Shown in pieces: positions 7,533-62,740 of a stretch of DNA of 64,000 bases. Positions within the stretch are counted from its first letter, which is position 1. Every line of letters starts with the position of its first letter. Origin of the DNA: Ectobacillus panaciterrae DSM 19096 (GTDB lineage: Bacteria > Bacillota > Bacilli > Bacillales > Bacillaceae_G); contig NZ_AUMR01000019.1 of NCBI RefSeq assembly GCF_000430785.1, positions 1 through 64,000 on the forward strand. Direction: 5' to 3'. Both the position numbers and the translations under genes were made by a program. The notes under the pieces were generated by a model. That model was given only the letters and a program-made list of their open reading frames with translations. It was not told the origin of the DNA and ran no database searches.

Positions 7533-8999
7533 TTAGAAGTCGAATCGGGATGTAATCATCTTTTTGCGCGTATAGAAGTTCACGCCATCTTTTCCGTTTA
7601 CATGCAAGTCGCCGTAGAAAGAATCCTTCCAGCCGGAGAATGGAAAAAACGCCATTGTTGCCGGTACGCCGACGTTCACACCCAGCATTCCCGCATCCGC
7701 TTCTTCCCGGAATTGCCGAATCGCCTTTGCGTCCTTTGTATAAATGGTCGCACCGTTTCCGTATCGAGACTTCTGGATATATTCCAATGCTTCATCCAAG
7801 TTCTCTGCACGAAGCAAGCTTAGTACCGGTGCAAAAATTTCATCCTTCGCAATCGTCATCTGCGGCGTTACATGATCAAAAATTGTTGGCCCTAAGAAAA
7901 TTCCTTCAGAGATTTGATCCATTTCCTTGCGGCCGTCCCGGATCAGCTGTGCTCCTTCTCGGACGCCTGTTTCAATATACCCGATTACTTTTTCACGATG
8001 TGATTGACGAATTACAGGCGTTAATAATACTTCTTCATCCAATCCGTTACCTATACTGAGTTCATCCGCTTTATCCTTTAGCGCTTTTACAAAAGCGTCG
8101 TTGTCTCCGACTACCACAACAGCGCTGCACGCCATACAGCGCTGGCCGGCGCTTCCAAAAGCAGATGAGATAATGTGGTCTGCCGCTTTATTCATATCAG
8201 TGTCAGGCATGACGATATGATGATTTTTTGCGCCTGATAAGGCCTGCACTCGTTTTCCTTGCGCCGCAGCGCGCTGATACACGTATTTCGCAACCGGCTG
8301 AGAGCCGACAAACGAAATGGCTTTTACGTCATCATGATCCAAAAGTCCATTTACAACATCATGCGCGCCGTGAACGATATTCAGCACCCCTGCCGGTCCG
8401 CCTGCCTTTGTAAATAATTCAGCAAGCTTGTTCGCCAAAATCGGCGTCCGTTCGGATGGCTTGAGCACAAATGTATTGCCGCATGCAATCGCAAGCGGGA
8501 ACATCCATAACGGCACCATCATCGGGAAGTTAAACGGCGTAATACCTCCAACTACGCCTAACGGATAGCGGAACATTTCAGAATCGATGTCCTCTGCGAT
8601 GCCAGAAAGCGATTCTCCCATTAAAAGCGAGGGAGCGCCTGCGGCGAATTCTACGCACTCTATGCCGCGCTGCACTTCTCCGTATGCTTCCTTATACGCT
8701 TTGCCGTTTTCTAGTACAATCAGCTTTGCCAGCTCTTCATGCTGCTCGGTTAATAAGTAATGATATTTAAATAGAACGCGGGCGCGTTTTGGAACGGGCA
8801 CCTTTTTCCACTCTGCGAACGCTGTCTTTGCGGCTTGTACTGCTTTTTCCACATCTTCTTTTGTAGAGATTCCGACCTTGGCAAGCACTTCGCCAGTTGC
8901 AGGATTCGGAACATCCAGTACTTCACTGCCGCTCGCTTCTACCCATTGTCCGTTAATGAAATTTCTGAGAACCAATGTATCACTCTTTGTCGTTGCCAT
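7533..8999 (-). CDS. mmsA: (Methyl)malonate-semialdehyde dehydrogenase, CoA-acylating
   Basis: A 488-residue aldehyde dehydrogenase of the MmsA/IolA subfamily. [14 protein letters not shown]-type nucleotide region, [13 protein letters not shown] and GQRCMACS (catalytic Cys) match CoA-dependent members rather than ordinary ALDHs, which carry an ELGGK motif. It would convert malonate semialdehyde from the aminotransferase into acetyl-CoA and CO2. It is first in a two-gene unit; the 157 bases upstream, between it and the regulator gene, should hold its promoter. An iolA role cannot be excluded from sequence, but no inositol genes are nearby. Confidence 0.9.
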
Positions 9000-9156
9000 A
9001 AGTCCCCTCCTATATTTTTAATGGCTTTCTATCATTATCTCGTATATACTGCAGGCATTCATTAGACATAGTGTCAAACGCCTCTATCCTTTTCTTCTAC
9101 ATGTTGGTTAGTGTACAGACGTATAAATTTTCTGTAACATAGAGATAGCTTACTGG

Positions 9157-10710
9157 CTACTGATACATTTTTATACGATTCGTTAATATCAAATAATCGT
9201 AAGCCTGCAGCATAAATTCAATAACAAGCCTTTTTTCCGGCTTCATGAAATCTGCACCGAGCAGCTGCTCCAGCTTCGTGATGCGATGATACAGCGTTTG
9301 TCTGACAACGAATAATCGGTTTGCCGTTTCCTGCTTGGAGCCGTTGCAAGCCAAATAGACCCGCAGGGTTTCCATCAGATTTCCTTTATACTTTTGATCA
9401 TAGCAAATGACAGGATCTAAGTATTCAAGGACAATTTCCTGCAAATCGCTATGCTTATGTATCATGGAAATCAAACGGTACATGTGCAAATCTTCATAGA
9501 AATGGCACTGCTTTCCTGTATTTTGTTGTACTTTAATCGCTTCCTTTGCTGTTAAGAAGCCTTTCGTGAAATCTTCAAGCTGTTCACTGAACTTTCCGAC
9601 CCCAATCGTAACGGCAAGTTTTTGTTTCTTCATAAAATCGGATTGCATCAGTCGCTGCAGGCCGCTTTCAATCCGTTGTCTCATTTTGCTGTCCCGATTG
9701 TTTAATAGAACAAAAGCAAGTTCATTTCGTTTCTCTGTACAAAGCGCGGAAAACCCGAACTGTTCAAAGATTGTCCGGAATAGCAGTTTAAAATATATAA
9801 AATCGGTATCTAAATCTTGAAACTTGCAAATGCACACCGTTCCGCCTTTCGGTTTATGCGGCATTCGATGACTCACGAGAAACCCCATGATTTCATCTTC
9901 ATCATGCTCCCCGGAAAGCCAGCTGTGCACCCACTCGTTTTCCTCTGCCCTTCTTTTCTCTTCTACATATAAATCACGAAGTAAATGCTGTGCAAGTGCT
10001 GTAGCTGTTCGATCCAGAATGAGCGTGTCGTATTCAGTGACTTCATCGGCTGTGTAAATAAAGAGGTCTGCATAATTTTGCCCGAGCAGCTGAATACATT
10101 GATGGGCTGTTTTGCGTTCATCAACACCTTTTACTCTCTCTACATTCTCATAAGGCAAAACATATTTTTTATTTCCATTCATTTGAAACACCACAGTATG
10201 ACCGAGATGATGCTGCAGCAGCTCAAGAATCTCTTTGCAATTTCGGATAGACAGCAGTTTCTTGTTTAACACTTGCGAATATTGTTCAAGGTTTGAAATC
10301 ATTTGATATTGCTGATTGATGAGATGAGAGTGGATATCGTGCGTAATCTCTACATACGGAACTTCCTGTTGAAAGAGCAGGATGGGAAATGCATGATCGT
10401 TTGCCAAACGGATGATGTCCTGCGGGATTCGGAAAGGGTGTCTTGTCATATCAATGCATAAACCGGATGCTTGCATTTCGAGAAGCTCTTGCAAAAACGA
10501 GAGGAACAATGCCGGGTCTTCTTTCCATCCTAATCCTGTTGATAAAACGAGCTCCTGCCCTTTTAAAAGTGTTTTGACGTTTGCCACTTCTAGTATATGC
10601 ACCCATTTGACGGCACGCTGCAACCCTGCTTCTCCGGCAATTATTTCAGCTTTTTCAAAATGTTTTCGTTTTAAAATATCTGTCATCGTAAGCTGGAAGT
10701 GATGCTGCAT
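9157..10710 (-). CDS. PucR-family transcriptional regulator
   Basis: A 517-residue regulator with an N-terminal PucR domain (TMTDILKRKHFEKAEIIAGEAGLQRAVKWVHILEV) and a C-terminal PucR-type helix-turn-helix (ETLRVYLACNGSKQETANRLFVVRQTLYHRITKLEQLLG). ATG 10710 (MQHHFQL) is chosen for its AGAGGTGA site; an earlier in-frame codon is less good. PucR proteins activate purine or pyrimidine breakdown genes when a ring-opening intermediate is present. Its position between the two transcription units, on the same strand, suggests it controls both. The ligand is not deducible. Confidence 0.9.
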   Translation of the reverse strand: MQHHFQLTMTDILKRKHFEKAEIIAGEAGLQRAVKWVHILEVANVKTLLKGQELVLSTGLGWKEDPALFLSFLQELLEMQASGLCIDMTRHPFRIPQDIIRLANDHAFPILLFQQEVPYVEITHDIHSHLINQQYQMISNLEQYSQVLNKKLLSIRNCKEILELLQHHLGHTVVFQMNGNKKYVLPYENVERVKGVDERKTAHQCIQLLGQNYADLFIYTADEVTEYDTLILDRTATALAQHLLRDLYVEEKRRAEENEWVHSWLSGEHDEDEIMGFLVSHRMPHKPKGGTVCICKFQDLDTDFIYFKLLFRTIFEQFGFSALCTEKRNELAFVLLNNRDSKMRQRIESGLQRLMQSDFMKKQKLAVTIGVGKFSEQLEDFTKGFLTAKEAIKVQQNTGKQCHFYEDLHMYRLISMIHKHSDLQEIVLEYLDPVICYDQKYKGNLMETLRVYLACNGSKQETANRLFVVRQTLYHRITKLEQLLGADFMKPEKRLVIEFMLQAYDYLILTNRIKMYQ

Positions 10711-10786
10711 ATCTTCACCTCTTCTAAAAAGCATAATGAGTATACTATTCGTGTTTTTAAAAGAGCATTCCTTCTTTTCTCAAAAT

Positions 10787-10820
10787 GAAACAGGACCGGC
10801 GTACATGCCGGTCCTGTTTC
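10787..10820 (-). terminator. Terminator after the permease/small ORF unit
   Basis: GAAACAGGACCGGC pairs exactly with GCCGGTCCTGTTTC around a 6-base loop, directly at the stop of the 73-residue ORF, with a T-rich reverse-strand tail. It separates the preT-to-small-ORF unit from the regulator gene. Confidence 0.88.
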
Positions 10821-11042
10821 TTAGGAAACGCTGCTCATTTGTTTAATGAGAAGAGCCGAAAAATATTTGCGCGCATCCGCGGTCATGATATGCAGCGTTT
10901 GGGGTTCTTCTGCTTCTCCTTGCTTTTCAAAATCAACAAAAGCCCCGTCAAGCGTTTCCCGGATATTTGCAATCAAATAGCCCTTTTGAATGAGAAAATC
11001 AATTTTATCGCGCTCTGCCAAAAATTCCGTATGTGATGACAT
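10821..11042 (-). CDS. Small uncharacterised protein of the pyrimidine operon
   Basis: A 73-residue soluble protein (MSSHTEFLAERDKIDFLIQK...). ATG 11042 has AAGGAG 8 bases upstream, whereas a GTG three codons earlier overlaps that site. No cysteine motif or membrane segment is visible. It lies 18 bases behind the permease and just before the terminator, so it is the last gene of the preT operon. Fixed position suggests an accessory role, but I recognise no family. Confidence 0.65.
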   Translation of the reverse strand: MSSHTEFLAERDKIDFLIQKGYLIANIRETLDGAFVDFEKQGEAEEPQTLHIMTADARKYFSALLIKQMSSVS

Positions 11043-11060
11043 ACAAAACACTCCTTTTCT

Positions 11061-12581
11061 TTAAATAGGCTGCTCTTTGCCGACAACCACTTCTTCCGTC
11101 ACCGGACCTTTGATATTCGTGATTTTCTCATATTCACCTTCCCGTAAAACACTTTTATCATCTTTCATTAAATAAGCGTAAATGCCCATGGAAATGATTA
11201 ATCCGAAGGCCAAAGCATTTTCCCATATGAAGTGCAGTCCTGAAATCATCAATCCGAGTATAGGAACAGCAATTCCGCAAATTAAGGCGTAAACCCCGTT
11301 TTTATTAAATCCGCTCGAATAGTTGTAACGTCCGCCAGGTTCATATAGTTCTTTGAGAACCATTTTTCTGCGGCGGACAAGCCAATAGTCCGCGATGGCG
11401 ATTCCATCAATCGGTCCTAGCAAAGCACCGTATGTGCCAAGCCAGCCGAATATATAGTTTCCAAAGTTAGACATGATATACCACGGCTGCATCATAATGG
11501 CGAAAACTCCAGTAATAAGGACGCCAATTCCGAATGTAATCCGTTTTGGATGCAAATTCTCGATGGCACGGGCAGGAGCTACGATGTTAGCTCCGACGTT
11601 AATCGTTAGGGAAGAAATAACAATGACAACTGTTCCTAAAAAGATAACCAACGGCGGGAATTTAGCGAGCAGCTGTACGGGATCCCATATAGCCTGGCCG
11701 AATATAACGACAGTCGCTGATGTAACCGCAATACCGATAAAAGAAAAGATGGTCATTGTAATCGGAAGGGAGGATGCTTGAGCAACCATTTGCGATTTTT
11801 GACTTTTTGCATATCGGCAAAAATCAGGAATATTCAAGGCCAGCGTAGCCCAAAAAGAGATAACTCCCATGAGTGCAGGGAAAAATATTTTTAAAAACTC
11901 GCCCGTTGTTTCGAATTTAGAAGGAGTTTCCAAAATGGGGCCCAAACCTCCCGCACGGGTGAATGCCCAGCCAAATAGGACGATGGCTGCAACAGCTATG
12001 GTAGGGGCGGCGATTGCCCCCAATGTTTTAATCGCCTGTGGACCTTTATATGCCACACCGACATTTAATGCCCAAAACAGTGCGAACACTATGGCTGTAT
12101 GTCCGGGTAAATCCGCCCAAGCCCGGAATGAGGCTGACAACAATGTATCGATTGCAGTGGTTCCAATCCATGTATTAATCCCGAACCATCCAGCAGCCAC
12201 AACGGCACGGGCCAAGGCAGGAATGTGCGCCCCTTTTGCCCCGAACCAAAGCCGTGCGAAAACAGGATACGGAATACCAAACTTTGTCCCGGCATGAGCA
12301 TTCAGTAGAATCGGAATAAGAACAATTACATTGCCAAGAAAAATCGTTCCGATAGCTTGCCACCAGTTCATTCCTAATGAAATCATCCCGCTGGCCATTG
12401 TGTAGGTCGGGATGCATAAACACATCCCGATCCACAAGGTAGCGAAATTCAATCCTTTCCATGAATGTTCCTGTAAGGTCGTCGGCCGCAAATCGTCATT
12501 CCACATCGGGCTGTCGCTTAACTTTTGAGCAGCTTCGTCTGTCAGGGTTACAATCCCGTTTTGTTCAATCTGTGTCTTCAT
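11061..12581 (-). CDS. NCS1-family nucleobase/hydantoin permease
   Basis: A 506-residue membrane carrier of the NCS1 family (Mhp1/PucI/allantoin type): NDDLRPTTLQEHSWKGLNFATLWIGMCLCIPTYTMASG at the N-terminus, then 12 predicted helices, including the conserved AAGWFGINTWIG segment and a YxxxGRYNY-like motif near the C-terminus. It probably imports uracil, dihydrouracil, hydantoin or allantoin by sodium or proton symport. It follows the dihydropyrimidinase gene and a repeat element. AAGGGGGG precedes the ATG. Confidence 0.9.
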   Translation of the reverse strand: MKTQIEQNGIVTLTDEAAQKLSDSPMWNDDLRPTTLQEHSWKGLNFATLWIGMCLCIPTYTMASGMISLGMNWWQAIGTIFLGNVIVLIPILLNAHAGTKFGIPYPVFARLWFGAKGAHIPALARAVVAAGWFGINTWIGTTAIDTLLSASFRAWADLPGHTAIVFALFWALNVGVAYKGPQAIKTLGAIAAPTIAVAAIVLFGWAFTRAGGLGPILETPSKFETTGEFLKIFFPALMGVISFWATLALNIPDFCRYAKSQKSQMVAQASSLPITMTIFSFIGIAVTSATVVIFGQAIWDPVQLLAKFPPLVIFLGTVVIVISSLTINVGANIVAPARAIENLHPKRITFGIGVLITGVFAIMMQPWYIMSNFGNYIFGWLGTYGALLGPIDGIAIADYWLVRRRKMVLKELYEPGGRYNYSSGFNKNGVYALICGIAVPILGLMISGLHFIWENALAFGLIISMGIYAYLMKDDKSVLREGEYEKITNIKGPVTEEVVVGKEQPI

Positions 12582-26149: not shown

Positions 26150-26410
26150 AATAAAAAAACACACCCATCCCTAAAAATAGGGACGAGTGTGTTAATACCC
26201 GTGGTTCCACCCAGATTCCCATCAAAACCTTTTCATAAGGTTACAATGGCTCCATTCGCTGTAACGCAGCGTCTGCGGTATTGGATACTGTTATTTCCCC
26301 AATACAACTCGAAGGCGGTAAGTCATTCCCCTGCGTTAGGAAGATCTCAGCATTTCTTCCTTCTCTGTAAAACCGTCAAGAATGACTCATGTCCTTTTCA
26401 TCGCTTGTTT
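26150..26410 (-). promoter_or_regulatory. T-box riboswitch, gene-proximal copy
   Basis: The reverse strand has the T-box sequence TGGGTGGAACCACGGG (26198-26213), followed by a terminator AACACACTCGTCCC/GGGATGGGTGTGTT plus T7. Stem I lies near 26320-26400 and contains AGAGAAGG...and CTTACCGCC, where ACC could be a threonine specifier. Uncharged tRNA-Thr would stabilise the antiterminator and allow thrS transcription. It is an almost exact duplicate of the next element. Confidence 0.92.
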
Positions 26411-57074: not shown

Positions 57075-57157
57075 CCCTATCTCTCCTCTGCTTCCTTCAT
57101 TGTATCATAAAAAGAAGCATGCAGGGATTTGCATGCTAGCAGTTGTTTAAGTACAAA

Positions 57158-57190
57158 AACACCCTCCCATAATCTATGGTAAGGGTGCCT
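57158..57190 (-). terminator. Terminator of the VWA-tubulin operon
   Basis: CACCCTTACCATA pairs with TATGGGAGGGTG and is followed by TTTTTG on the reverse strand, 11 bases beyond the tubulin-like stop codon. Confidence 0.85.
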
Positions 57191-57200
57191 GATATACCGC

Positions 57201-60200
57201 TTATACGTTCGCCTTCGTTTCCTCATGCACCTCTTGGACGCCGAGCATATGCAGCCATTTTTTGTAGGAGGCACTGTTTTCGTCCACATAGCCTTTTGCA
57301 TACGAACGATTCCACAAATGCTCGATAAAAATAGCCGCTTCCTTCCGTGCGATGCCTTCCGCTCCTGCTCCGTAGTAACTTTTAAAATAGCTCTCTATTT
57401 CATCAAGCAAAAGACGAAGCAATTCATCGGACGTTTCTTCAAGCGTCGCATCCCGCTTCGCTTCGCTGCCGTACATGAGGACAACGTCTAAAATATTGTG
57501 AATGAACTCTTTGCGCAGCCATTTTAAATCCTGAGCGCCCGTTACAAACGGATGCGTATATAAATGTCCGCCTGCCTGCAGCGCCGCTTCCTGCTCCTGC
57601 TCGAAGCGGGAAATGATGTTTTCATAAATGAACGGGTTATGCAACAGTCCTCTGTGCAATTTATAGCCCTCGCACGTCACATTCTTGCCTCTGGACTGAA
57701 TAAGCGAGCTTCGTCCGATACCGTTATATTGGTACACGAACTGCTCATCTACCCTGACAAGGCTGATCCAGCGGTACATGTACGCATATAAAAATGCACG
57801 GTTGCATTTTTCATAATCAAGCTTCGTTTGCGTAGCATTCAAGTCAGGCATAAATGCCGGCAAATGCCAATATTTATCAAGATGCGGCGTTAAGTTGGAC
57901 TTGCGGACGTTCAGCTTGTGAACGCGCCGGTAATATGCTTGGAAGTAATCTCCCTTGCCGTCGTTATAGCCGTTTGCCGCATGACCGGCGGAAAGCTTCG
58001 GAAAATCCTGAAGCGACAAGCCATAATGCGCCCGATAGCACACCACTTCAAACGGTGAAAACGCCGTATCGACCGTTTCCTTTTCCCTGAACACCTCTTG
58101 CACCAATTCCTCGTTCAGCTCGCGATACACGTTCGGGTGAATCCCCCAATACTGCAGCTCGCGGTGATGCGCTACTTTCGGAATGAACGGACTCGCTAAA
58201 TGAATGAGATTGTCAATGCGCTCTTTCACATATTCGCTGCGGTCGCAGCTTTTAAAATCAGCTTCTTTGCGCAGTGCATCAATTACGTTCAGTTCGAGTT
58301 TATCGCGATACCGCGACTGCAATTCTTTACGGCAATACGCAAGAATATGCGAGCGGTAAAAATCCTCTACCTTTTGCGACCTCCCTTCTTCTGCTCCGCT
58401 GTCCTTGCAGTACTCCCGATATAAGCTTAAATAAATCTCCGAAGAAATTTCAGGCGGCAATATGCCGTTATCTACACTTTGATAAAGTTGCTTCCACAGC
58501 TTTTCCTGCATCTCTTCGCTTGCGAGCACGTACACGCTCGTCGGATTCGTTTTTCCTTCGAATTCCTTGGCGCGCTTTTGGATCTCAAGCAGCAGGTTTT
58601 CCCGCGTTTCCTGCAGGTTATCAAAGAACCGCTCCCAATGCTTAATCATTTGTTCAACCGCTTGGTAAATGGATTGATACACAAGCTCAAGCAGCATTTC
58701 CTTGCGATAATCCGTCAGTTTATTCACATACTGCGCGATAATATCCTGAAACTCTTTACGGAACGCGCGCTGCATATTATGAAACATTTTTCCGAACCAG
58801 CCCTGCTGCTCCGAAAGCTCGACGCGGCGCACCGCCGTTACCGTGCCGTCCACATTGCCGAGATTGAATTTTTTATCGTAATTTTGGATGAGATTGCGCT
58901 TTTGTTCATTGCTTTCCTGCAAGCGCTTCATGCGCTCTGCCAACAGCTTTCGAACTTCATACAGCATATACCGCGATGTCACAGGATGAATCGGAGACGG
59001 TTTTTTCAAAAACCACGTGTTGAGCTGATACGATTGCCCCTCAGCGCCGCTCGGCGAAAACTGATCCGCTTCAATAATGTCATACACAAGCGTTGTGACG
59101 TGCTCGTGTACGCGGCTTGGAATGCTGTAGGCATATAGACGCACCGCATGATCGACACGTCCTACCTCTCCCTTCATTTGCTCCGGCACCTTCAGCTTCG
59201 CGCTCATCACTTTGCATTCACGCTGCAGGCGATTCAACTCCTCATCCTTTTGCACCGTGCGCTGCACGTAGCTGTCCACTGCTTCTAAAAACTGACGTGC
59301 CTTGGGCATGCCCGTTTTACCGCCTTCCGCTCCTTCGCGCGTTTCCATATAAATTTGCTTGTAAAACGGATGCGCCCGCTCCGGCCGCGTGGCGAGGTGC
59401 TCCAAATCCTCCAAAAAGCTGCGGCCTCGCTCCGGCTTTTCCCGCTGCACGCCGCGGCGTACATCCTGCTCGTAACGGTTTTTCTTCTCCTCATACAATT
59501 TGTCTAAATGCAGCCACGACTCATCCAAGCCCTGCACCGCCCACTTAAGGGCCGAATATTCCAAAACATGCCCGTACGGATAAATGAGTTTTGCCGCACC
59601 GGCTCCGCAATAGCGCGCTTTTCCGTTCGAATCGGCAAGCTGCTGAATTTGGTTATCCTCCTGTGCAAAATGATTGGCGGAAATCGGACTGAACAGCTGC
59701 AGATAAATCGTATTCGTCATCTGCTCCATATAATCGGACAAATTCTGCAAATGATGACCGTGCAAATTTTCATAGTCATACAGGAAGCAATAGTTATAAG
59801 GCAAATGCTTCTGCATGATCGTATGATTCGTCCGGCCGTCTTCGTCTACTTGATCCGGACGGTATTCCAGCTCAATTGTCGCACCGCCGCGGCGGGACAG
59901 CTCGCCGGAAGAGCCGAGCGTAATCGCATGCAGCTCTTTTAAAGAAGCATAGCCGTTCGCCTGAACAGTCTCAAACTCTTTCGCGCTGATTGTTCGTGTT
60001 TTGACGAGAGCGTCAGGAAGGAGAAATGCCCCTCGTATGATAATGTTATTATGCTGTAATTTTTTTCGGAGCATTTCCCGCAAATACAGCGCAATTTGGA
60101 GATACATTCCCGATCCGGTTCCGCCTGCGAGCGACGTAATGATGATGACGCGCACGCCGTACTCCGTCGTATCGCTTGTGACCGGAAAGATTCTTTCAAT

Positions 60201-60569
60201 CTCCTGCCAAAATGCTGTCAGCTTATCATCCTTCATCGCCGCCCGCAATGCCAGGCGGGAAATAACGCGAAGCTGCCCTGCGCCTTCTGTAAGCGGCTTG
60301 TCGAGAATCGTCGGATCCTCTGGAAACCAATCCGTAATCGTCGCATCCTCCGCAAGATATTCACGCGGCGTTTTGCTGGAACTTGTTTGTGTCATGAATT
60401 TTTTATTTCCAAATCGGCTCACCGTGTTAATATCCGTATCAAACACATGCATCGCCACCTTCTTGCGGCGCTCCTTCGGTATTTTGCTGTACACATTATA
60501 CGTAATCGTACTTCCGATCCCCCCAAGACCAATTAAAATCGTCGGAACTTGTGAATTCACCCGTACCAT
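57201..60569 (-). CDS. Large tubulin/FtsZ-superfamily protein (Tubulin_2 type)
   Basis: About 1,122 residues. The N-terminal ~350 form a tubulin/FtsZ-like GTPase: TILIGLGGIGSTITYNVY (nucleotide loop, ~10-27), VFDTDIN, and SLAGGTGSGMYLQIALYLREML with the GGTGSG tubulin signature (~149-154). The remaining ~750 residues are mostly helical, with a basic coiled-coil-like middle and no transmembrane segment. FtsZ and TubZ are only ~350-500 residues, so the C-terminal part is a special extension. Start choice: ATG 60569 lies directly after the VWA stop codon; GTG 60560, better spaced from GGGGG, is an alternative. Probably cytosolic and membrane recruited. Confidence 0.85.
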   Translation of the reverse strand: MVRVNSQVPTILIGLGGIGSTITYNVYSKIPKERRKKVAMHVFDTDINTVSRFGNKKFMTQTSSSKTPREYLAEDATITDWFPEDPTILDKPLTEGAGQLRVISRLALRAAMKDDKLTAFWQEIERIFPVTSDTTEYGVRVIIITSLAGGTGSGMYLQIALYLREMLRKKLQHNNIIIRGAFLLPDALVKTRTISAKEFETVQANGYASLKELHAITLGSSGELSRRGGATIELEYRPDQVDEDGRTNHTIMQKHLPYNYCFLYDYENLHGHHLQNLSDYMEQMTNTIYLQLFSPISANHFAQEDNQIQQLADSNGKARYCGAGAAKLIYPYGHVLEYSALKWAVQGLDESWLHLDKLYEEKKNRYEQDVRRGVQREKPERGRSFLEDLEHLATRPERAHPFYKQIYMETREGAEGGKTGMPKARQFLEAVDSYVQRTVQKDEELNRLQRECKVMSAKLKVPEQMKGEVGRVDHAVRLYAYSIPSRVHEHVTTLVYDIIEADQFSPSGAEGQSYQLNTWFLKKPSPIHPVTSRYMLYEVRKLLAERMKRLQESNEQKRNLIQNYDKKFNLGNVDGTVTAVRRVELSEQQGWFGKMFHNMQRAFRKEFQDIIAQYVNKLTDYRKEMLLELVYQSIYQAVEQMIKHWERFFDNLQETRENLLLEIQKRAKEFEGKTNPTSVYVLASEEMQEKLWKQLYQSVDNGILPPEISSEIYLSLYREYCKDSGAEEGRSQKVEDFYRSHILAYCRKELQSRYRDKLELNVIDALRKEADFKSCDRSEYVKERIDNLIHLASPFIPKVAHHRELQYWGIHPNVYRELNEELVQEVFREKETVDTAFSPFEVVCYRAHYGLSLQDFPKLSAGHAANGYNDGKGDYFQAYYRRVHKLNVRKSNLTPHLDKYWHLPAFMPDLNATQTKLDYEKCNRAFLYAYMYRWISLVRVDEQFVYQYNGIGRSSLIQSRGKNVTCEGYKLHRGLLHNPFIYENIISRFEQEQEAALQAGGHLYTHPFVTGAQDLKWLRKEFIHNILDVVLMYGSEAKRDATLEETSDELLRLLLDEIESYFKSYYGAGAEGIARKEAAIFIEHLWNRSYAKGYVDENSASYKKWLHMLGVQEVHEETKANV

Positions 60570-60573
60570 CCCC

Positions 60574-62688
60574 CTAGTCGCACTCGTATCGATACGTTTC
60601 CTTGCCATAGCCGCGGTCAATCCTAACCGCTTCATTCGGGTAAAGCGTACGATGCTCGAAGCCTATTTCATCTTCTTGCAAAAATGAACCGTCAATAATC
60701 ATGCCTTCCACCTGTGATTCCTTCGCGACAAACACAGCTTTCGTCCCCTTTTTCGCAATGAACGTTACAGACTGCACGGTCCGCCGCTCTGCCCTGTACG
60801 GAATGCCGAGATAATGCTTCCACCATGCATTGCGAAGCAGCTCGGGCTCTCCTTTATGAATCCATTCATCCGATAACGACTGATCTAATTCATAAGAAAT
60901 AAAGGCTCTTCGGTGAAAGCGCGGGCGTATAATCCAGCCGATGACTAAAACCGCAAGCATGATGATAACAATGCCAATCGGCAATACATACTGAAAAATT
61001 ACATTATACCGTTCCCAAAACGATACATCTGCAACAGTAAGAACAACAACTTGTGATGCTTTTCCGAATTCTTGACTTTCCATTGTGATGGCGGCTTCTA
61101 TGGTGCCGGTTTCTGTAAAGTTAAATGTGTCGGAGTAATAAGGGCGAGGATATAAATAGAGTTTCGTACCTTGTTGCGACAGTTCATAGCTGATTCGTTT
61201 GTTGAACGTGACGCGGAACGAGGTGTTTTTGATTTCTTCCGCTGTCATCGGCTTCCCGTCAAGAAGCGGCTGCAATACAATGGGAGAGCTTTCGGAAAGA
61301 TCGGTAACCTTCTCCCGCCAATCCTTTGTTTCTACTTGAAGAGACAGCTTCGGCTTTGGAACGGGACTTATGCGAAACTCTTTCGTCTGCTGGTAAAACC
61401 CTTTAATATTCATGCTGACATTCCCGCGAATCGGCTCTGTCCCGACCTTCATTTCATATTGAAACGTCTTGCGCAAGTCATCCCATTTCATCGGCTCGGA
61501 TTTGCCGTTTTGCACAATCGATGCTGCAAAATAAGAAGAATTCACCGGGAGCTCATTCGGCTTCGCCTCAACAATCACCGTGCTACCCTCATACATCTTC
61601 TCGCTTGCTTCCGTCAGCTGCTTGCCCTCTTTTTTATATACCTTTACCGTGTAATCGAGCGCAGGCTCGACAAGCACCTTTATGCTGCCGGAAGAAATGT
61701 CCCGATCCAGCTGCAATTCATATTTCCCGGCCTTCAGCACTGCGCCGTCTGATCGGGCAAGGTGCGTAATGCTTCCATTTAAAATCGCTCGCTGCGGCGT
61801 TTGTGTTTTGTACGGTCCTTCTGTCACAAGCGTTGCGTCCGATGTTTTCACAACACGCGCATTCTCTGCGCTTCCCTGCTGCACAACCGTTATTCTTCGA
61901 AGCGGAAACGGTGATGTAACGGTTACCTTATTTCCTTTCACTTCCGTTTTTACCACATCTTCTACATTGGAAAACGGATCGCGGTTCGCAATAAGCCCCG
62001 CCGCTTGATTAACGCTATTCACAACGCCGTCCTCGCCGTCTGTCGGAAGAAGAATGCCGTTTATCGTCTCTTGCCAAATCTCTTTAAACGTATTCACCTG
62101 CTGCCGTTCATCCTCAGTCAACTGGGACTCCATCGTAATTAAAACAGAATGAACAGAAAGCTTTCTCTCGTCCATCCAAGCTTTAAAATTCCGGAGCGTA
62201 TCTGTAATATGCTTTTTATTTCCTTCATACTGCGCACCGTTTGAAGATTCCAGCTCATTAAACGCGCCGTCGGTCAGCATGATAAGCCAAAACTCATCCT
62301 TCCCGTTGCTCGATTGTCGCTTTAAAGCCTCAATCGCCGTCTCCACCGATTGAAACGGTGTATTTTTATAGCTGTTCCAGTTCCGTATTCCGTCTATCTC
62401 CGCCTGACGTTTTCCAAGCGTAACCGCTATCTCCTGTGCAGGATTGCTCATCAGCACGTACGAAAAGCGGTCTCCTCCGTCAAGCAGCCCGACAAAGCTC
62501 TGCAGCGCATAGCTTGCATACATCCAGCGGTTCACCGCCTTTTTTCCGCTCGATCGCATACTGCCGGAATCATCATATACGAGCACGACCGTCCTTCGCT
62601 TCGCCTCACCGTCCTTTGCCCCGGAGACAGGCATCCAAACCATAAGCAGCAAAAGAAGCACGCATGTGGCCATCAAATGTTTTCTCAT
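60574..62688 (-). CDS. Secreted, membrane-anchored VWA-domain protein
   Basis: 704 residues. A signal peptide (MRKHLMATCVLLLLLMVWMP) precedes a VWA domain with a full MIDAS motif DDSGSM (~39-44) and LIMLTDGAF. Several Ig/beta-type segments follow (~270-540). One membrane helix (VLPIGIVIIMLAVLVIGWII, ~566-587) leads to a ~117-residue cytoplasmic tail ending RYECD. ATG 62688 follows AAAAGGTGG at 9-base spacing; the longer frame in front lacks a good site. It ends 4 bases before the tubulin-like ATG, a coupled pair. VWA domains bind metal-dependent protein partners. Confidence 0.9.
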   Translation of the reverse strand: MRKHLMATCVLLLLLMVWMPVSGAKDGEAKRRTVVLVYDDSGSMRSSGKKAVNRWMYASYALQSFVGLLDGGDRFSYVLMSNPAQEIAVTLGKRQAEIDGIRNWNSYKNTPFQSVETAIEALKRQSSNGKDEFWLIMLTDGAFNELESSNGAQYEGNKKHITDTLRNFKAWMDERKLSVHSVLITMESQLTEDERQQVNTFKEIWQETINGILLPTDGEDGVVNSVNQAAGLIANRDPFSNVEDVVKTEVKGNKVTVTSPFPLRRITVVQQGSAENARVVKTSDATLVTEGPYKTQTPQRAILNGSITHLARSDGAVLKAGKYELQLDRDISSGSIKVLVEPALDYTVKVYKKEGKQLTEASEKMYEGSTVIVEAKPNELPVNSSYFAASIVQNGKSEPMKWDDLRKTFQYEMKVGTEPIRGNVSMNIKGFYQQTKEFRISPVPKPKLSLQVETKDWREKVTDLSESSPIVLQPLLDGKPMTAEEIKNTSFRVTFNKRISYELSQQGTKLYLYPRPYYSDTFNFTETGTIEAAITMESQEFGKASQVVVLTVADVSFWERYNVIFQYVLPIGIVIIMLAVLVIGWIIRPRFHRRAFISYELDQSLSDEWIHKGEPELLRNAWWKHYLGIPYRAERRTVQSVTFIAKKGTKAVFVAKESQVEGMIIDGSFLQEDEIGFEHRTLYPNEAVRIDRGYGKETYRYECD

Positions 62689-62714
62689 AAGCTGACGCCA
62701 CCTTTTCAATGGGA

Positions 62715-62740
62715 TAACCATAGACAAATTCCTATGGTTA
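62715..62740. promoter_or_regulatory. Inverted repeat before the VWA gene
   Basis: TAACCATAG and CTATGGTTA (exact 9-bp arms, 8-base loop) lie 27 bases before the VWA start codon. It may be an operator or a 5'-leader hairpin. A second hairpin, CCTGCGT/ACGCAGG, lies near 62900-62925. Otherwise 62741-63018 shows no gene I can support. Confidence 0.5.

Follow-up and report, generated by a model that had tools for sequence, protein, structure and literature searches.

Operons that join a gene of the FtsZl1 family, a widely scattered family of tubulin-like proteins, to a VWA gene were described in 2010 by Makarova and Koonin, and the majority of the family has a VWA gene in the operon (PMC2875224). 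From gene context these authors proposed a role for FtsZl1 in membrane remodelling or vesicle biogenesis; one reviewer of the paper favoured transport or signalling. They could not place T6-H7 in FtsZl1. The Tubulin_2 group (PF13809), to which these proteins belong, was set aside as sparse and divergent in PMC9871819. Among the papers listed by a literature search of mostly open-access journals, we found no experimental study of FtsZl1 function.

We found a two-gene operon of this family in a 64,000-nucleotide stretch of the genome of Ectobacillus panaciterrae DSM 19096 (contig NZ_AUMR01000019.1, positions 1 to 64,000; hereafter the window). Both open reading frames were where a sequence-only reading of the window had put them, on the minus strand. 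The features, in window positions, are:

60574..62688, minus strand: VWA gene, 704 aa (open reading frame, start ATG 62688; PF13519; AlphaFold2 model)
61984..62595, minus strand: VWA domain, residues 32-235, with MIDAS D39-x-S41-x-S43, T110 and D140 (alignment, VIA)
60928..61005, minus strand: membrane helix, residues 562-587 (hydropathy and model)
60577..60924, minus strand: cytoplasmic tail, residues 589-704, a small beta domain (identity to congeners)
57201..60569, minus strand: tubulin-like FtsZl1 gene, 1122 aa (start ATG 60569; PF13809; model)
59529..60539, minus strand: Tubulin_2 domain, residues 11-347, with GGTGSG at 149-154 (PF13809 match)
57204..59528, minus strand: mostly helical extension, residues 348-1122 (model secondary structure)
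57151..57190, minus strand: terminator-like hairpin and T run behind the pair (folding energy against shuffles)

The two genes are co-directed, with 4 bases between the VWA stop codon and the ATG of the tubulin gene; translation might instead begin at a GTG 9 bases further in. The single terminator that had been read at the end of the pair was borne out by folding energy (-18.2 kcal/mol, z -3.19 against 200 shuffles), and the hairpin was absent from the list of a simple terminator scan. Beyond it, the next gene encodes a DUF1294 protein. We saw no conserved third gene behind the pair at the other loci of the two-gene clade (below). Promoter-like sites were not enriched (7 found; shuffle mean 10.2). 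Elsewhere in the window, positions 612-982, 1684-1862 and 26176-26410 gave Rfam matches over the gathering score (cspA thermoregulator, 6S RNA and T-box leader).

We found that the second gene belongs to the FtsZl1 family. Its product matched PF13809 with E = 4.9e-70 and 237 bits (curated cut-off 27), over profile positions 1-354 of 356, and was the only protein in the genome to do so. It contains the loops GLGGIG (from residue 14) and GGTGSG (from residue 149). The second of these agrees with the family's GTP-binding loop GG(G)TG(S/T)G, in which S is replaced by A in the Bacteroidota rows. A helical part follows the FtsZ-like domain in the model (longest helix, residues 599-667), and the adjoining gene of the operon encodes the VWA protein. 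The sequence-only reading had described a protein of about 1,120 residues with a helical extension of about 750, close to the 1122 residues of the frame and the ~775 mostly helical residues behind the Tubulin_2 match. NCBIfam gave only 17 bits against a cut-off of 125, and the solved relatives found by sequence were two TIM9 chains (E 0.23 and 0.41), matched on the coiled part.

The predicted structure supported the tubulin-type fold that had been claimed from the loop motifs. The model (pLDDT 76.2, pTM 0.52) matched CetZ (3zid_B; VIA Z 18.9, 276 residues, rmsd 6.5) and an Asgard tubulin (9f6t_B; VIA Z 18.0, 264 residues, rmsd 3.8), and the best 50 VIA matches all came from tubulin, CetZ or FtsZ, alone or in complexes. 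Foldseek on the same model gave a best E of only 3.4e-3. We limited family claims from fold searches to tubulin and VWA. Profile comparison with FtsZ covered the T1-T4 part only (E 0.0019, probability 14%), so sequence does not confirm the polymer-contact parts. In the model, a strand (260-264), a helix (277-293) and the loop after it sit at the expected places of S6, H7 and T7, and D305-N306 in this loop is invariant in 21/21 aligned sequences. We propose D305 as the T7 acid, which we infer from position and conservation because the FtsZ profile alignment did not reach T7. The model shows a tubulin-type fold followed by a long helical extension.

By prediction, the product of the first gene is a secreted VWA protein that crosses the membrane once; its MIDAS is complete, and its cytoplasmic tail is conserved and of beta structure. 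The match to PF13519 (VWA_2) was barely above the Pfam cut-off (28.7 bits against 27), and that to PF00092 was below it (16.4 against 23.8 bits). The MIDAS pattern DxSxS...T...D is intact: among 18 aligned sequences D140 is invariant, and D39, S41, S43 and T110 each occur in 90% or more; profile and pattern together place the protein among VWA proteins. By hydropathy, a signal peptide and a single further hydrophobic helix are followed by 116 residues (117 in the sequence-only reading, which had the same topology). The AlphaFold2 model (mean pLDDT 82.3, pTM 0.55) has a VWA domain at ~32-235, beta domains at ~247-553, a helix at 562-587 and a beta tail at 595-703. Its VWA domain superimposed on the solved VWA protein 4fx5 (VIA Z 19.0, 178 residues, rmsd 2.4), as expected for the VWA/MIDAS ectodomain that had been proposed. 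NCBIfam gave only 19.5 bits against a cut-off of 432. Two TLE1 chains found among solved-structure sequences (E 0.0008-0.0009) were taken as chance matches.

A VWA domain with an intact MIDAS might also indicate integrin-like adhesion, in which the outside domain would attach the cell to a surface and a tubulin-like polymer would bear the force. Many VWA proteins matched the fold, pilus adhesins and the integrin I domain among them. However, such matches are common to nearly any VWA protein, adhesive or not, and we consider this explanation very unlikely.

Among the species of the genus, the tail is the part of the VWA protein that has changed least. Compared with three congeners, identity was 77-83% in the tail, 61-72% in the VWA domain and 52-53% in the remaining outside part. 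The corresponding values were 54%, 49% and 36% for a sister species, and 30-31%, 36-38% and 25-28% for two relatives with a four-gene operon, in which the VWA domain is therefore better kept than the tail.

We compared the pair with its relatives. PF13809 is patchy: 22/397 genomes of the order sample had a match (16 above cut-off), as did 14/398 of the phylum sample (11 above cut-off). We removed duplicate contigs (L023=L018, L024=L016, L041=L015, L091=L026, L092=L027, L090=L034) and short or weak PF13809 matches (L013, L014, L055-L059, L080-L087). Regions L021, L022 and L069-L071, among the dropped weak matches, had no match to VWA or to the proteins X and Y described below. We counted as other types the f48-type loci (L060-L065, L088, L089) and the distant L066 and L068. 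This left 24 distinct loci of the same type in Bacillota, a number that counts the window itself.

The VWA gene was next upstream of the tubulin gene in 24/24 of these loci, in one of them (L034) as a fragment. This is the stable pairing that the sequence-only reading had asked a genome survey to show. Four Ectobacillus species, the window's included, and one sister species carry the pair side by side, and the two-gene loci form one clade (support 100/100). The reading had named beforehand two outcomes that would count against it, a model without a tubulin fold and the two genes standing apart in most genomes. Neither was seen in Bacillota, but the seven Bacteroidota loci had no VWA gene directly beside the tubulin gene (0/7; 3/7 are on contigs <10 kb). 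In one of them, L035, a VWA gene lies two genes upstream.

Several other loci deserve separate mention. L034 (Ornithinibacillus; L034:9161-19358) has, besides the VWA fragment, an intact tubulin-like frame, but both X and Y are broken into two frames. In L088 and L060-L065 a VWA match that bears a MIDAS lies two genes after the tubulin gene; L066 and L089 have no MIDAS match. At L068 (L068:6910-8709 and 8702-11512) a MIDAS gene stands directly upstream of the Tubulin_2 gene, and the latter is directly followed, by eye, by a 599-aa frame that opens with a GLGGAG loop and may encode another tubulin-like protein.

We found that the operon is longer in the other relatives. Genes for two proteins, X (~720 aa) and Y (~1280 aa), lie behind the pair in 18/24 loci, which are 18/18 of those checkable outside the Ectobacillus clade (the contig of L042 ends before their place). 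X and Y were present in 0/5 loci of the Ectobacillus clade, and searches of the five genomes of the clade (E 1e-3, one query each) did not find them elsewhere, although two positive-control genomes matched. The two-gene layout of the sequence-only reading therefore holds for the Ectobacillus clade only; elsewhere in Bacillota, loci of the type comprise four or more genes. In X there are one to three hydrophobic segments, near residues 500-560 in the full-length sequences, and no Pfam family reached cut-off. For Y, 13/14 sequences show several hydrophobic segments within the first 220 residues; the fourteenth is a C-terminal piece. HExxH, a downstream EGxAxWxE pattern and preceding cysteine pairs occur without exception in all 14 aligned sequences of Y. 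Pfam gave only peptidase matches below cut-off. We read Y as a putative membrane-bound zinc peptidase.

The two-gene form probably arose by reduction of the larger module. The tree did not settle the placement of the two-gene clade among the four-gene loci. However, a far relative (L067, 21% identical) has all four genes, its X with the support of E 5e-5 only and its Y with HELTH, which makes loss of X and Y in the Ectobacillus clade the simpler reading. Upstream of the operon in L067 (L067:16830-19500) are frames that by eye resemble a Ser/Thr kinase and a PP2C phosphatase.

If X and Y were lost, the pair might be a decaying remnant without function. Their absence from the genomes of the window's species, three congeners and the sister species is what this would predict. 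However, the two-gene form is under purifying selection. Between two close species (L017 and L018), dN/dS was 0.020 for the tubulin gene and 0.101 for the VWA gene; pairs that include the window have reached saturation of silent sites. The frames are uninterrupted in 5/5 loci of the clade. Purifying selection already largely refutes decay, which we regard as extremely improbable.

Membrane proteins behind the pair are also consistent with the published proposal (PMC2875224), in which the tubulin-like protein would shape a membrane, for remodelling or vesicle biogenesis, and the VWA protein would anchor it. FtsZl1 membership and the predicted membrane helices of X and Y favour this reading. However, the proposal was based on gene context, and a reviewer argued otherwise, as noted above. 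Furthermore, remodelling predicts neither the peptidase motif of Y nor the CARF-HEPN neighbour described next. We consider this explanation doubtful.

In some relatives the operon stands next to a gene for a TIGR02710-type CARF-HEPN protein. The gene is directly after Y in L025 (Evansella), L026 (Sutcliffiella) and L028 (Alteribacter), and directly before the VWA gene in L095 (genome G576):

L025:12121-13599: CARF-HEPN gene beside the operon
L026:19518-20975: CARF-HEPN gene beside the operon
L028:19464-20960: CARF-HEPN gene beside the operon
L095:5434-6933: CARF-HEPN gene beside the operon

The L025 and L026 proteins matched NCBIfam TIGR02710 and Pfam Csm6 6H and Csm6 HEPN, all above cut-off, and TIGR02710 was above cut-off in G553 (the genome of L026) and G576 in the order-wide search. 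That search found the family in only 9/397 genomes (8 above cut-off). The four operon-side proteins belong to a group of seven, 45-93% identical to one another; the remaining three, L096 and two from short contigs of a single genome (L101, L102), are encoded away from the operon. The order has four more TIGR02710 proteins, which share 19-31% identity with the group; the genes of three of them lie within ~8 kb of a Cas10 palm match. The HEPN motif RN.S...HG is present in 10/11 aligned proteins, with HN in L099.

Of the three genomes searched for Cas10 that have the CARF-HEPN gene beside the operon, two gave no match above cut-off. The palm profile had no match in G553, one below cut-off in G576, and one of 29 bits (cut-off 27) in the Evansella genome; the CRISPR-bearing G022 and G025 gave 117 and 121 bits. 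Since the profile also matches in an E. coli control, we presume that the weak matches may be GGDEF proteins. Among the papers listed by a literature search of the same scope as above, none joined 'CARF domain' with FtsZ, tubulin or VWA terms.

The four-gene block and the CARF-HEPN gene are separable. G108, a congener of G553, lacks the 12-kb block at the corresponding site and retains the CARF-HEPN gene (L091:2999-14981, Y-X-tubulin-VWA, against L096:10742-10753; flanks 83-85% identical). The block was therefore gained or lost as a unit, and separability of the RNase speaks against CARF-HEPN as an obligate part.

These neighbours raise the possibility of surveillance or conflict, in which a VWA-tubulin assembly would sense envelope attack and act through peptidase Y, and sometimes through a CARF-HEPN RNase, with Ectobacillus keeping the core. 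Four operon-side genes of so rare a family, and the clean presence or absence of the block in one genus, are consistent with this. So is the proposal of Kaur et al. 2020 (PMC7159879) that tubulin-vWA neighbourhoods of another type are conflict systems. However, no CARF-HEPN gene was found in the window's genome, 14/18 four-gene loci have no such neighbour (some stretches are short), L096 keeps the gene without the block, 3/7 of the group are away from the operon, and PADLOC gave nothing strong. We judge surveillance unlikely. A more specific version is quite improbable in our estimate: the VWA-tubulin-X-Y operon would be a CRISPR-independent shut-down triggered at the envelope, in which a ligand bound by the outside VWA domain would switch a tubulin-like assembly at the membrane, this assembly would set off the zinc peptidase Y and, in some lineages, a Csm6-like CARF-HEPN RNase, and Ectobacillus would keep a sensor-scaffold core after loss of the effectors.

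Based on these results we tentatively favour, with a little under even confidence, the notion that the pair represents the core of an FtsZl1-VWA module that has shrunk to two genes in the Ectobacillus clade. The VWA tail would hold the tubulin-like protein at the cytoplasmic side of the membrane, where assembly would be driven by GTP, and binding of a ligand or metal by the outside VWA domain would alter this assembly. Where the module is fuller, X and the peptidase Y would be under the control of the assembly; the Ectobacillus core would act alone or with unlinked partners. Judged solely by domain type, the likeliest use is to sense and answer disturbance of the cell envelope. The PF13809 score, the tubulin and VWA folds, membrane topology, the 24/24 pairing and the dN/dS values argue for the core-module explanation, as do conservation of the tail within the genus, the predicted membrane helices of X and Y, and the HExxH of Y in 14/14 sequences. 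Against it are the restriction of the FtsZ profile match to T1-T4, the low pTM of the two models, the two four-gene relatives in which the tail is not best kept, and the lack of an adjacent VWA gene in Bacteroidota.

For asking what FtsZl1 does, hardly any genetic system could be smaller than the two-gene form, and strains of the genus are in culture. The more surprising clues are in the relatives: the peptidase motif of Y and the CARF-HEPN neighbour are concrete, testable outputs that the membrane-remodelling proposal does not name.

We compared the pair with known systems. Cell division, TubZ-type plasmid partition and phage spindles had been judged poor fits from the sequence, and failed profiles together with plasmid and phage searches agreed. 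Like FtsZ, the tubulin-like protein has a tubulin-type fold and a glycine-rich T4 loop, but it is three times longer, its match to PF00091 was below cut-off (23.1 bits against 33), and FtsZ_C was not listed up to E 1. It thus fails the FtsZ profiles, and FtsZ proper is encoded separately. FtsZ_C occurs in 3 copies in the window's genome and 1 in each of 4 relatives. The two further FtsZ genes (L104:4404-5765, contig C119; L105:7356-8510, contig C93) are ~73% identical to the main FtsZ and lie on short contigs of lower G+C; the L104 copy has a repeated C-terminal tail. Assembly contamination (4%) is a possible source.

TubZ and PhuZ are also of the tubulin superfamily, and TubZ chains were among the Foldseek matches. 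The pair differs from both in its chromosomal contig, conserved synteny, membrane partner and long extension. Plasmid partition does not suit a pair with the same neighbours as in congeners and a membrane VWA protein as partner, and only 3/72,556 plasmid records matched the tubulin-like protein, all at <28% identity. The PHROGs PhuZ profile gave E 0.085 over 23 residues; besides PhuZ, one PHROGs family of unknown function matched (E 0.14). A single phage record (1/50,697) matched, at 27% identity over 82% (MT836542.1, 6991-9729). It is an unannotated 9.8-kb fecal 'Bacteriophage sp.' and may be a bacterial fragment. Among known defence families, the best PADLOC matches were PDC-S32 (E 0.063) and LeoB (E 0.34).

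GAP1-N2 systems, as described by Kaur et al. 2020 (PMC7159879), resemble the pair in joining a tubulin gene with a C-terminal helical part to VWA genes, near the membrane. They differ in having two VWA genes and, in Firmicutes, two tubulin genes, a zinc-ribbon GTPase and GAP1 components. Judged by eye, no GAP1, zinc-ribbon GTPase or FNIII component was recognised among the neighbouring ORFs of the window. We take the f48-type loci, also by eye, to be of the GAP1-N2 kind.

The closest described system is the VWA-FtsZl1 operon. It was published in 2010, and the pair is therefore not a new kind of system. The pair differs from the published operons in having two genes only, with no kinase, P-loop GTPase or OmpA gene recognised beside it by eye. 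The published operons also include unnamed families, A1-A2 and B1-B9, to which X and Y may belong. The pair shares with the published operons (PMC2875224) an N-terminal FtsZ/tubulin domain followed by a long helical or coiled-coil part, and a neighbouring VWA gene whose product has an intact MIDAS and, often in the family, a signal peptide or membrane segment.
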